A DNA stretch of 37,528 bases, taken from contig CALLBC010000108.1 of the NCBI GenBank assembly GCA_938001965.1, positions 1-37,528 on the forward strand, given 5' to 3'. Below are positions 6,436 to 23,445 of the stretch, piece by piece. The position numbers were made by a program, and so were the translations under genes. The notes under the pieces are model-generated. The model worked only from the letters and a program-made list of their open reading frames with translations, searched no databases and had not been told where the DNA came from. Positions within the stretch are counted from its first letter, which is position 1; each line of letters starts with the position of its first letter. This DNA comes from an uncultured Bdellovibrionales bacterium. GTDB taxonomy: Bacteria > Bdellovibrionota > Bdellovibrionia > Bdellovibrionales > UBA1609.

Positions 6436-7461
6436 CTATTCATTGGTAAGAAATATTTTCTCGCCACCATCAAGTTTAAGCTTCCCCCTTACCGCTTCAG
6501 GCAATATTACCTCATTGCCTCTTTCAATATAGGGTGTTTGAGAAATTTTTATTCCCCCCGCACCTTCAAAACCTATAAGCCCAAATCGTTCAAATTTATC
6601 AGTATTTTTTTTAATTTTATTTAAAGTCAAAGTCCTACCATTTTTTATTAATGTTACTTCGCTCTTTTTAACCCCTAAATGTGGGCCACCATCAAATGGA
6701 TCAACTTCATTTTTATCTTTAAAGCCTACTTTATTCAGCAAATGTAATGCTCCAGCTGTTTGATCACTAACTCTACCTAAAACCAACCTGGCTTTAGAAT
6801 TAAGTAACGCTAAATAAATTTCTTCTTTAGGAAACAAACTTTGAATAAATTCTTTATTCTTATGGCTTAAAGCATCGGCCTCTTGGTATGGCATTCCTGT
6901 AAATCGTCTTCCCAGAGCCTCCCAAAACTCACTTCTTCCATCCTCTGTGAGTGGTGGCGCCATTTCAGAGTGCAAATCTTCTTTAAATCTGTCAGGCTCC
7001 ATCCCAATATATACAAACCTGGATAAACTGGTTAACTTGCCTACTTTTTCTGGGCGCCGTCGATAAGACCTATGAACAACTAGTCCCCCCAACTCAGTTG
7101 GACCCTCTGTGGTTACTTTCAACTTTAACACTTGATGAATAAATCCCACCCCTAAAGACTTACTAAACATTTCTTTTTTTGATAGTTTGTAACTATAAGT
7201 TGGGTTTTCTTCACTACCATGCTGAGCCTTTATTTGCGCGCTTCCTACAACCCAGCCATTTTCCAAATCTTCTGCAACCAACATGTATGTCGAGTCTTTC
7301 ATATCAGCACTTCCAGAGAATGATTGTTGGCTGAGCTCAATTTTTTCAGAAATAACTTTTTTATCCGCCGGCAAATTTAATAATGAAAACTGGCCCGCCA
7401 AAGATACTAAATTTGATAAATCTTTTTCTTCTACTGGCCTAACAATAAAATTCATAAACAC
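6436..7461 (-). CDS. astA: Arginine/ornithine N-succinyltransferase-like protein (AstA/AruFG family)
   Basis: AstA-type motifs: LGGLVVHRSYRR, SEFWEALGRRFTGMPYQEADALSHKNKEFIQSLFP, GFKDKNEVDPFDGGPHL. Start may be the internal ATG giving MNFIVRPVEE. Confidence 0.85.
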   Translation of the reverse strand: MFMNFIVRPVEEKDLSNLVSLAGQFSLLNLPADKKVISEKIELSQQSFSGSADMKDSTYMLVAEDLENGWVVGSAQIKAQHGSEENPTYSYKLSKKEMFSKSLGVGFIHQVLKLKVTTEGPTELGGLVVHRSYRRRPEKVGKLTSLSRFVYIGMEPDRFKEDLHSEMAPPLTEDGRSEFWEALGRRFTGMPYQEADALSHKNKEFIQSLFPKEEIYLALLNSKARLVLGRVSDQTAGALHLLNKVGFKDKNEVDPFDGGPHLGVKKSEVTLIKNGRTLTLNKIKKNTDKFERFGLIGFEGAGGIKISQTPYIERGNEVILPEAVRGKLKLDGGEKIFLTNE

Positions 7462-11247: not shown

Positions 11248-11771
11248 TTAACTACCTTTGGGAAAATTTATTCAAACGCAATGAAGACCATGTAATTAAA
11301 GTCTTATCTAATAATGTTTTATTTAAAGACTTAACATCTAGTGAGTTACAAACTGTATCAAATTTTTTACATATTCGTCACTACCGCCCGGCTGAATTGA
11401 TTTTCAGACAAAATGAAATCGGTGTTGGCATGTATATTATTCTTAAGGGAAAAGTTGACATTCTTATTGAAAACCATAGCGCTGGCGACGAAGACACTGG
11501 TGACTTTATAACACGGCTAGAAGAAGGTGATTTAATGGGCGAACTGTCACTTATAGAAGAAAATAGTCGACGAACTGCTTCTGCCCGAGCCATGAATGAG
11601 TCATCACTCCTTGGTTTTTTTCAACCTGACTTAAAAAACTTACTGCAATCTCACCCTGAAATTGGAGGACGTATATTATTACGACTTTCCCAGGTGCTTG
11701 GCAGACGACTATCTGAAACGGCAACTAAAATTACTGAACTTAAAAAACAAATTGATAGTATAAAGGCTTAA
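11244..11771 (+). CDS. Stand-alone cyclic nucleotide-binding domain protein
   Basis: cNMP-fold pattern: IRHYRPAELIFRQNEIGVGMYIILKGKVDI...LEEGDLMGELSLIEENSRRTASARA; no HTH after it. Confidence 0.85.
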   Translation: MINYLWENLFKRNEDHVIKVLSNNVLFKDLTSSELQTVSNFLHIRHYRPAELIFRQNEIGVGMYIILKGKVDILIENHSAGDEDTGDFITRLEEGDLMGELSLIEENSRRTASARAMNESSLLGFFQPDLKNLLQSHPEIGGRILLRLSQVLGRRLSETATKITELKKQIDSIKA

Positions 11772-12821
11772 ATGAACATACTTATACAACAACAGCGCTT
11801 AAAAAAAATTGAACGACTAAAACTCGTTTTATTTCTAAGTATAATTGCCGTTGGCTTATTAATATTACTAAAAGTGGACAACATGTTACTGTCCTTTTTG
11901 TTAGCCTTTGTTTTAAAATATACCCTTGCACCACTAATTAATTATTCGGAAAGAAAGGGTGTTAGTAAATCCCATGCAACACTACTTGTTTTTACATTAT
12001 TTTTTAGTCTTATTGGCATTTTAATTTATTGGGCTTTACCGTATATTTCTGTTCAATTTAAAGCCTTCCACGCAGAATTGCCACGTTATATTGAAGGGAC
12101 ACGCTCCTTAATTTTTGACATCGAGTCTCGAGTGGAAGAAATTATTAACACTAGCGTCGAGTTTAACCTTAGTGCTCAAGCAGAAAGCTTAATGGTTAGC
12201 TGGACTAGGTCTTTATTTGAAGATCTTCCTAATTTTTTATCTAAATCTTTAACCACAATTCTCCTTGCTCCCTTCTTTGCTTATTTTTTGCTAAAAGATA
12301 GCCACAGCATTTCTAAAAAACTTTTAGATTTAGTTCCAAATAGTTTTTTTGAGCTTGCCCTGAGCTTGCAATACCAAATTAGCGAACAAATGGGACAATT
12401 CATTCGAGCACGACTACTAGAGGCTGTAATTGTTGGTATGATTGTATGGGCTGGTCTTAGTATTATTGGTTTCCCATATTCTCATTTACTTGCTTTATTT
12501 GCTGCCCTAACTAATTTAATCCCATATATTGGGCCAATTATAGGGGCCATCCCCGCCATTATTATTGCAATGATTAATGGTGCTGGGCTACTTGCAGTTG
12601 TTGGTGTTTACGCCTTTGCTCAGCTTATTGATATTATTTTTATTATCCCCCTTGTTGTGGCTAAAATTGTTAATTTACACCCAATCACAGTTGTGGTTTC
12701 TATAATTATTGGAGCTCAACTTCTTGGTATTGTGGGTATGTTGGTTTCAATTCCTGCAGCCAGTATGATCAAGGTAACCGCTCAAAATGTGTATCATCAT
12801 TTAATTAATTTCAGAGCATAA
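11772..12821 (+). CDS. AI-2E/PerM family membrane transporter
   Basis: Multiple TM helices; LLAPFFAYFLLKDS, LTNLIPYIGPIIGAIPA, HPITVVVSIIIGAQLLGIVGMLVSIPAA typical of the AI-2E transporter family. Confidence 0.88.
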   Translation: MNILIQQQRLKKIERLKLVLFLSIIAVGLLILLKVDNMLLSFLLAFVLKYTLAPLINYSERKGVSKSHATLLVFTLFFSLIGILIYWALPYISVQFKAFHAELPRYIEGTRSLIFDIESRVEEIINTSVEFNLSAQAESLMVSWTRSLFEDLPNFLSKSLTTILLAPFFAYFLLKDSHSISKKLLDLVPNSFFELALSLQYQISEQMGQFIRARLLEAVIVGMIVWAGLSIIGFPYSHLLALFAALTNLIPYIGPIIGAIPAIIIAMINGAGLLAVVGVYAFAQLIDIIFIIPLVVAKIVNLHPITVVVSIIIGAQLLGIVGMLVSIPAASMIKVTAQNVYHHLINFRA

Positions 12822-20880: not shown

Positions 20881-21459
20881 TTAGCTTTTCTTTTTCGCTG
20901 TCTTTTTAGCAGCTGTCTTCTTTTTAGTTACTTTCTTTTTTGTCTTCTTCTTTGCAGCTTTCTTTTTTGCTGTCTTTTTCTTAGCCGTAGCCTTTTTAGC
21001 CACTTTCTTTGCTACTTTTTTTGTAGCTTCTTTTTTAGCTCCAGGCTGTTTAGCAGCTTTTCTTGCAGCTGCTTTATCATCTAATAGTTGCTGCTTTTTA
21101 GCTGGATCAAAAACTTTAGCTTCTTTATCAGCTTTACTTACTTCACCCTTTGGGTTGGTAATAGACTTAATAAAAAGCTCTGTGTACCACTGACGATGAC
21201 CTTGCATACGTCTGTAACCCTGTCTTCTTTTTTTCTTAAATACTAACACTTTTGCTGCGCGAGTTTGGTGAGTAACAACTGCTACTACTTTTGCATCTGG
21301 TAATACTGGATTTCCAGAAAAGCTATCTGCTCCACCAACCCAAAGTACTTCAGGAATTTCAAATTCATCACCTAAGTTTTTATTTAACTTTTCAACTCTT
21401 AATTTATCACCAGCTTTTACTCTATATTGTTTACCACCGGTGCGTACTATTGCGTACAT
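20881..21459 (-). CDS. rplU: 50S ribosomal protein L21 with long Lys/Ala-rich C-terminal extension
   Basis: MYAIVRTGGKQYRVKAGDKLRVEKL...RRQGYRRMQGHRQWYTELFIKSI; start at ATG 21459 with upstream GGAGG (minus strand), not the track start at 21504. Confidence 0.95.
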   Translation of the reverse strand: MYAIVRTGGKQYRVKAGDKLRVEKLNKNLGDEFEIPEVLWVGGADSFSGNPVLPDAKVVAVVTHQTRAAKVLVFKKKRRQGYRRMQGHRQWYTELFIKSITNPKGEVSKADKEAKVFDPAKKQQLLDDKAAARKAAKQPGAKKEATKKVAKKVAKKATAKKKTAKKKAAKKKTKKKVTKKKTAAKKTAKKKS

Positions 21460-21739
21460 TTCTAACCTCCAAACTCTCTTTAGTAGAACTGTAATATCTG
21501 CCACGCTGCGATAGCTAAGTCAACATATTATAGCTGTTCAACCAGGCATATTTTTCAATATTGCAATGGCCCTAAATCATTAATATTTTAGGGTTATTTA
21601 TACGTCGCAGCTATTACAGCGAGCTACCAAATGCCCATGGATTGAGCGGCCATAAGTGCTCGATATTTATACACTATTTTATACTTAAAGTCTTTAAGCT
21701 CTGGCCCATGCTTTGTTACATAGGCCTTCAAATCCAATT

Positions 21740-21911
21740 TTCTAGCTAAATACTTTTAAATCTTCGCTTCTACTTTTGCTAGAGTATCGCGTCGCGCTTC
21801 GCGTATCCGCGCTGTGCTCACCTGAAAGGTGACAAAGTGCGAAGACGCGATGCCGCCGTAAGCGCACTTTAGCAAAAGTAGAAGCGAAGATTTAAAAGTA
21901 TTTAGCTAGAA
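21740..21911. repeat. Long inverted-repeat element: 42-bp perfect arms flanking an 88-bp GC-rich core
   Basis: Arm 21740-21781 ttctagctaaatacttttaaatcttcgcttctacttttgcta is the exact reverse complement of 21870-21911 tagcaaaagtagaagcgaagatttaaaagtatttagctagaa; core 21782-21869 is GC-rich with nested complementarities. Confidence 0.92.
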
Positions 21912-21918
21912 GTTTAGG

Positions 21919-23445
21919 CTATATCCAGTTGATTTCATATTGCTCAATATGAAAGCTTGGCTCGACCTTCACGGCCACAGATGTCTGTTTATCACTTTCA
22001 AAGCCGTCAATGGCCTCGGTCTCTTCGGTATATAGCCAGTCTGCCACGTCAGAGTGGCACCTGACCTTAACTGATTCTGAGCTCACCTCTTTTTTAAGGC
22101 TAAGTTCACGTTCAATTTCTCTCAAAATTTCTTGGGCCACTGTCATTTTTTGCTTAACATAGCCTTTGCCTTCACAATATGGGCAAGGCTCACATAATGT
22201 GTTCCTTAAACTTGGCCTCGTTCTTTTTCGAGTCATCTCTACAAGACCCAGATCAGACATTGAAACAATAGTGTTTTTTGCCTTATCTTTTGCCATTTCA
22301 TTTTGTAAAGCTTGTAAAATTTGCTCTTTATGAGTTTCTTTTTCCATATCAATAAAATCAATAATGATTATGCCGCCGCAGTTTCTTATCATTAGCTGAT
22401 GTGCAATTTCTTTTGAAGCCTCGAGGTTTGTTTTAAATATTGTTTCTTCCAAGTCTTTTTTACCAACATAACGCCCGGTATTTACATCAATAACAACAAG
22501 AGCCTCCGCCTCATCAATAACAATGTAACCTCCTGACTTTAACCAAACTTTCCGGCCAAGTGACCTTGAGATTTCAATATCAATATCATACAGATCAAAT
22601 AAGGGTTTAATATTTTCATACAATTGAACTTTTGATTTTAACTTTGGCATAAATTGGCCCACAAAATGGACTACTTTTTTATATGTTGGCTTATCATCAA
22701 CCAAAACTCTTTTAACATCTTCATTAAGAAGATCTCTTAAGGAAACCAGCTCCATGCTAATCTCGGAATGAACCTGACCCATTGTTTTTTTATTTGTATA
22801 GTTTTTTTGAACATCACGCCAAATTTTACTTAAATAAACTAAGTCTGAATTTAAACTCTCTTCGGGAGCGCCTTCACCAGCAGTTCTAATTATAACTCCA
22901 CCCTCTGGCTTTAAAGAAAGCACTAGCTCCTCTAAACGCGCCCGCTCTTCCTCATTTTCTATTTTGCGAGAAACACCAATATGATTAACCGTGGGCATAT
23001 ACACAAGGTTTCTGCCTGGTAAGGTTATGTGGGTTGTAATTCTTGCGCCCTTTGTTCCTAAGGGGTCTTTTGCTACCTGAACCATTAACTCTTGGCCAGC
23101 CGTAATTAAAGTTTGTATTGGAGGCAAAGAAGTGTTTTCCACACCCTTATTATCAAATCTTTTTAACACCACCTCTTCTTCGTCATTATCATCCGATAAA
23201 TCCGCATCAACTTTTAAGCCTTGAGTAACAATATCACCAACATATAAAAAGGCAGCCTTGTCGAGACCAACATCTACAAAAGCGGCCTGCATCCCAGGCA
23301 AAACCCTAAGAACCTTTCCCTTATATATTGATCCGACAAAGGTCGGTAAAGTCTTTCTTTGAACTTTGAAGTCAGTAATCACTTTTTCATCAAGATAAGC
23401 AACTCGAGTTTGTCCTGGACGAACATTTATTAATATTTCAGACAT
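21919..23445 (-). CDS. rng: Ribonuclease G/E family
   Basis: VGSIYKGKVLRVLPGMQAAFVDVGLDKAAFLYVGDI, EALVVIDVNTGRYVGKKDLEETIFKTNLEA, CEPCPYCEGKGYVK zinc-link motif. Confidence 0.94.
   Translation of the reverse strand: MSEILINVRPGQTRVAYLDEKVITDFKVQRKTLPTFVGSIYKGKVLRVLPGMQAAFVDVGLDKAAFLYVGDIVTQGLKVDADLSDDNDEEEVVLKRFDNKGVENTSLPPIQTLITAGQELMVQVAKDPLGTKGARITTHITLPGRNLVYMPTVNHIGVSRKIENEEERARLEELVLSLKPEGGVIIRTAGEGAPEESLNSDLVYLSKIWRDVQKNYTNKKTMGQVHSEISMELVSLRDLLNEDVKRVLVDDKPTYKKVVHFVGQFMPKLKSKVQLYENIKPLFDLYDIDIEISRSLGRKVWLKSGGYIVIDEAEALVVIDVNTGRYVGKKDLEETIFKTNLEASKEIAHQLMIRNCGGIIIIDFIDMEKETHKEQILQALQNEMAKDKAKNTIVSMSDLGLVEMTRKRTRPSLRNTLCEPCPYCEGKGYVKQKMTVAQEILREIERELSLKKEVSSESVKVRCHSDVADWLYTEETEAIDGFESDKQTSVAVKVEPSFHIEQYEINWI

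Follow-up and report, generated by a model that had tools for sequence, protein, structure and literature searches.

The gap between rng and rplU in the 37.5 kb stretch of DNA analyzed here (the window) raises the question of what kind of sequence builds a long, perfect inverted repeat around a GC-rich centre, and how it came to lie there. The initial annotation had described 42-bp arms at 21740–21781 (plus strand) and 21870–21911 (minus strand), and repeat comparison confirmed that they are exact reverse complements; with one mismatch allowed, a repeat search extends them to 46 bp (21740–21785 and 21866–21911). Between them lies a conserved core of 88 bp (21782–21869, plus strand) with a GC content of 60%, compared to 29% for the arms and 36% for the window, in agreement with the GC-rich centre and AT-rich surroundings first reported. 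The core contains an internal loop, GCGTATCCG / CGAAGACGC, and an apical stem, as seen from an alignment of 29 copies, pair counts, and the same motif in other genera. The boundaries of the repeat family to which it belongs, here called family A, make this copy slightly longer than first noted (approximately 21734–21918, 185 bp, plus strand, in core+ orientation; outer-end consensus CCAAATTTCTGnATAAATATTTTTAAAA), and a covariance model matches it from 21735 to 21917 (E=4e-46). The element abuts the stop codon of rng (21919–21921; gene at 21919–23445, minus strand), and rplU (L21; 20881–21504) and the rplU–obg group are likewise on the minus strand.

At the base composition of the window, an exact match of 42 pairs is expected by chance at approximately 1e-24 per position, and no other inverted repeat as large was found in the 37.5 kb. 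The minimum free energy of the element folded as RNA is −106 kcal/mol versus −45 ± 3.9 in shuffled sequences (z = −15.9). No ORF of at least 100 aa crosses the element between rng and rplU, which bears out the view that the core is not explained by a CDS. The stem was also rightly judged to exceed the size of a terminator, as its 42-bp arms are AT-rich and no T run follows it. A direct target duplication flanking 21734–21918 was not found. Other repetitive features of the window include a 132-bp tandem repeat of approximately 2.5 copies (1395–1720, the first two 99% identical) inside a minus-strand ORF (557–1798), and the 3′ part of rplU (20887–21030), which encodes a low-complexity C-terminal tail.

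The genome of the window (G000; 3.55 Mb, 266 contigs) carries many such elements. A blastn search with the 172-bp element, proposed earlier as a check, recovered approximately 30 dispersed loci; often the core alone aligned, since the arms are too variable. A covariance model built from 29 copies of this genome added diverged ones (L087–L089), and both methods together give at least 32 copies. In most of them one arm is an almost perfect match to the other (approximately 98% self-complementary), though the arms vary between copies. Changes on both sides were found in 34 of 36 arm pairs and 47 of 70 pairs overall in the 29-copy alignment, and the cells with two-sided change over the structure numbered 231, compared to 53 ± 7.5 in shuffles (0 of 500). 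The suspicion of a genuine structure was therefore well founded, as pairing is strongly maintained and also strand-specific (see below). The gene on the 3′ side of the core runs towards the element and has its stop codon within 40 nt in 23 of the 29 copies; a stop codon is equally near on the 5′ side in only about seven.

Outer arm ends are common to the G000 copies, and solo occurrences of their consensus did not rise above background in 569 kb; the idea that this consensus is a repeated target was rejected for that reason. Shared ends that are not found above background elsewhere suggest that one palindrome in G000 was probably amplified whole, and that the arms of its copies later diverged together. 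Because the outer arms of the window copy match this subfamily consensus, they were probably inherited. No empty site close enough to show the origin of these arms was found, and when exact insertion boundaries were sought between G000 and both G001 and G002, the intergenic DNA was too diverged to align.

A regulatory RNA linked to RNase G/E, the other reading offered at first, was rejected on location. No such hairpin was found downstream of rng in eight relatives inspected (G001, G002, G003, and five more), and other copies adjoin other genes. Conservation at rng–rplU had been suggested as a check, and in the same-genus relative G001 the element is absent from this gap, though about a dozen copies occur elsewhere in that genome. 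The covariance model detected no family A copies in the near-complete G002 and G003, and gave matches in seven more genera of the same family and, elsewhere in the order, in one genus of a different family. Most matches outside G000 are very long hairpins that share the motif GCGTATCCG...CGAAGACGC in the internal loop; those in G005 carry a weaker variant. Scanning 84,980 species for the motif pattern returned 31 loci on genome contigs, of which 23 have a hairpin, and all 23 are titled Bdellovibrionales, Bdellovibrionaceae, or Bdellovibrionia. The other eight matches (Polaromonas, Luminiphilus, Actinomadura, and others) have no hairpin and were taken as chance. Searches of phage and plasmid records and of IMG/VR came back empty or with a single match that lacked a hairpin and was attributed to chance. 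In both the covariance model search and the motif scan, the family A core is restricted to Bdellovibrionales assemblies. The copies in G010 (L072, L073, and L076) form divergent pairs 90–310 bp apart, whereas other genomes have single copies.

Comparison between copies and between genomes bears on the origin of the arms. In G055 (assembly SI075_bin85), the sites L162, L172, and L155+L168 have an identical 86-bp core within wholly unrelated perfect arms. Arm identity between these copies is 0.47, the same as for shuffled arms (0.47), and the outer arm ends, shared within G000, are unshared here. The orthologous copies L006 (G000) and L136 (G001) follow the same gene and have related cores and very different arms, and hence arms change fast. 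At G001:C18, an ABC1-like gene ends inside the left arm, which takes in its final 24 nt (LTDYWPE*), and the right arm repeats this sequence in inverted form. This gene end is conserved in the G000 ortholog, which provides a coding comparison and not an empty site, as the contig ends approximately 60 nt past the gene; an apparent core of another family lies at that contig end. At G025:C18, a gene end, LRLEF*, falls within one arm and recurs inverted in the other; the gene itself is conserved in G007, G035, and G010. In the latter three genomes the same two genes converge but no hairpin lies between them, which makes these empty sites; the intergenic gap is 171 bp in G025 with the element versus 38, 6, and −4 bp in G007, G035, and G010, respectively. 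A SufE-like gene end in an arm at L160 looks similar and is a possible further case, so that the evidence for native arms comes from two well-supported loci and one weaker one. The simplest reading of these loci is that a stretch of the flank was copied, inverted, to the far side of the core. In two of the three cases the gene is on the 5′ side of the core and in the other on the 3′ side, a poor fit to one fixed direction of copying.

The residual arm mismatches provide information on the strand involved. Among 64 distinct elements from 10 genomes, the core+ strand shows 41 G.T, 6 A.C, and 24 other mismatches (p = 2e-7), and without G000 the ratio of G.T to A.C is 18:2. An earlier, looser count in other genera (18 G.T and 14 A.C) included internal-loop positions and was superseded by this stricter one. 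The core+ strand is also the better-folding strand of the core in 50 of the 64 elements. As neutral drift is expected to produce G.T and A.C equally, the excess indicates that a particular single strand, set by the core, folds while arms are being formed or maintained. The bias could alternatively come from selection on a folded RNA. In most G000 copies, the adjacent gene has core+ as its template strand, and this speaks against a simple role as a 3′-UTR RNA.

Family A is not the only core found in such a setting. Long hairpins with a loop of at least 20 in 607 kb of G000 mostly contain recognizable cores of a few families; hairpins without a core are short and terminator-like there, and long core-less palindromes were not found. 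In these 607 kb and in 259 kb of G055, long perfect arms also enclose other short cores, such as GTGCTCnnnCAGCTCGCCTACGGCGAGAACTGCGCGC and CTAAAACGAGTTCGGAGC...GAGCACCGTATGTCTGAGGCTTTAG; hairpins of this kind were not found in 165 kb of G002 and G003. A second family has a core of approximately 49 bp (TTTCACAAAGTGCTCnnnCAGCTCGCCTACGGCGAGAACTGCGCGCTTTATAAA) in unrelated perfect arms of 23–43 bp, at L204:2720-2815, L206:11281-11413, L206:19343-19439, L235:19058-19191, L238:2034-2155, 7159-7273, and 11640-11774, and L210:4851-4957 (G001). The third core family, CTAAAACGAGTTCGGAGC...GAGCACCGTATGTCTGAGGCTTTAG, is found with long arms at L204:13035-13147, at L276:1543-1665, and beside the family A element in L006. 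More core types occur in long hairpins of G055 (L251, L257, L259, L263, and L264), and some of its extra cores carry a GTTTGAGC / GAGTTCCGC motif that recalls the second family. The presence of several core families in long perfect arms implies that the phenomenon is larger than family A.

Our preferred explanation, which we consider probable though by no means secure, is that the window element is a single copy of a dispersed mobile hairpin that is non-autonomous, and that the flanking sequence is copied back on itself as the hairpin inserts or afterwards. The conserved, moving part would be the core of approximately 88 bp, and the long arms would largely not be inherited with it. With the core+ strand single-stranded, the hairpin would fold and place its 3′ end on its own strand, and a polymerase could then copy the flank with the folded core as primer. 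Sequence from one flank would thereby be copied, inverted, to the other side of the core, and an insertion, typically just past a stop codon, would end within a perfect palindrome of 25–70 bp. Such fold-back synthesis may occur once at insertion or repeatedly during replication, and an enzyme acting in trans is assumed. In G000, whole amplification of one palindrome would account for the shared outer ends, and its arms may have co-diverged by compensatory change or by repeated arm-to-arm copying. The wider proposal, to which we give slightly less than even weight, is a new mode of DNA insertion in which short hairpin cores of several families spread in one order and every insertion turns 25–70 bp of the target into an inverted duplication around the core, by fold-back synthesis on one defined strand, in place of a direct target duplication. 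The literature searched contained no precedent for a bacterial mobile element that duplicates its target in inverted orientation.

Among the alternatives, a classical MITE would consist of a 185-bp unit with terminal inverted repeats (CCAAATTTCTG...), moved as a block by an end-recognizing transposase. The earlier MITE-like label holds insofar as the element is dispersed, non-autonomous, and missing from the rng–rplU gap of a same-genus relative, and the conserved outer ends of the G000 copies would fit, as would the lack of a solo end consensus standing out in 569 kb. The classical form is nevertheless rather unlikely, as the window copy has no direct target duplication, the arms do not form the same terminal inverted repeat from genome to genome, and host coding sequence can occur within them; furthermore, the identical cores with unrelated arms in G055 imply that the ends are not what is recognized there. 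The massive compensatory change, the G.T-type wobble limited to one strand, and the position just past stop codons could also be explained by a structured RNA, in which core+ is transcribed into a long double-stranded hairpin that might, for example, act in processing or stability at the ends of genes, with the pairing of the arms maintained by selection. We regard this as unlikely, because in 23 of the 29 G000 copies the adjacent gene is transcribed through the core− strand, on which the tolerated mismatches are A.C and not G.U. Its location is also not conserved among relatives, the arms are unrelated between copies, and Rfam gave weak sub-threshold matches with none at gathering score.

Insertion of the core into palindromes that already existed, such as terminators or other hairpins, has a precedent in REP dimers, some of which were noted inside longer palindromes (PMC3733652). 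The empty sites in G007, G035, and G010 contain no palindrome, however, which largely refutes this reading, and the absence of long core-less palindromes from the 607 kb of G000 also speaks against it; we consider it very improbable. A fold-back artefact of assembly or amplification deserves attention since the genomes were assembled from metagenomes and cores form the ends of some contigs (L155 and L168), but it is scarcely credible given a core conserved in many independent assemblies from different projects, mid-contig copies with different genes on either side, and an orthologous site occupied by related cores in G000 and G001.

Candidate enzymes for the proposed mobile hairpin were also evaluated, and among the families considered neither a transposase with its ends nor another enzyme could be linked to it. 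A REP transposase (PF01797, Y1_Tnp) was rejected as the mover, as its genes are present both with and without the element and show no REPtron layout; no core was found near Y1_Tnp genes in 12 stretches inspected. Reverse transcriptase (PF00078, RVT_1) was rejected as well, with no match in G000, G001, G010, and G025. The complex that contains SbcD cuts long hairpins in E. coli. SbcD (TIGR00619) had no match above cut-off in 27 of the 28 genomes examined across the order and was found in G045 only. Its loss was rejected as a specific trigger because it is missing across nearly the whole order, element-free genomes included. The absence of SbcD may permit such palindromes, but it is at most permissive and does not explain their patchy presence.

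The closest known relatives are the REP and REPIN palindromes associated with RAYT (TnpA_REP) transposases, which fall into GTAG and CGTC super-families (PMC3733652, PMC8266576). Like family A, they are dispersed, non-coding, and hairpin-forming, lie mostly just 3′ of stop codons, and show strand-specific folding and stem irregularities. REP units measure 20–40 bp, however, compared to approximately 88 bp for the family A core. They have a GTAG or CGTC tag at the foot of the hairpin, and many but not all family A copies have CGTC, TGTC, or AGTC 5′ of the inner stem. REP and REPIN have a consensus palindrome and a link to RAYT, whereas family A has no tie to RAYT and, outside the G000 subfamily, a palindrome unique to each copy.

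Correia/NEMIS and ERIC elements are MITEs that, like family A, are short, non-autonomous, multicopy, intergenic, and palindromic. MITEs are expected to have fixed terminal inverted repeats and direct target duplications, whereas family A has variable arms and no direct duplication was seen. The attC sites of integrons are similar in that a long hairpin lies beside a stop codon and one strand folds. Family A forms no cassette array, its conserved centre and variable arms are the reverse of attC, and the attC motifs R″ (RYYYAAC) and R′ (GTTRRRY) were not found by inspection at the ends of family A copies. Quasipalindrome correction by template switching copies one hairpin arm onto the other and, as in family A, makes the two arms identical. 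It is known as a local mutation process and is not known as the partner of a dispersing core; in family A, arms of 25–70 bp appear to be made anew around such a core. We regard family A as a variant of the dispersed palindromic repeats, and it is a real possibility that its insertion mode is new.

Family A is a repeat spread through relatives of the predatory bacterium Bdellovibrio, in which only the centre is conserved and the arms mirror neighbouring host DNA where this can be checked. Mobile DNA is usually recognized by fixed ends and direct target duplications, and an element with a conserved centre and ends that mirror the host flank would escape standard searches. New long palindromes would arise naturally from such an element. 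The tolerance of bacteria for long palindromes would become testable, in an order that appears to lack SbcCD, and with family A as a natural data set, selection on pairing could be told apart from arm-to-arm copying.
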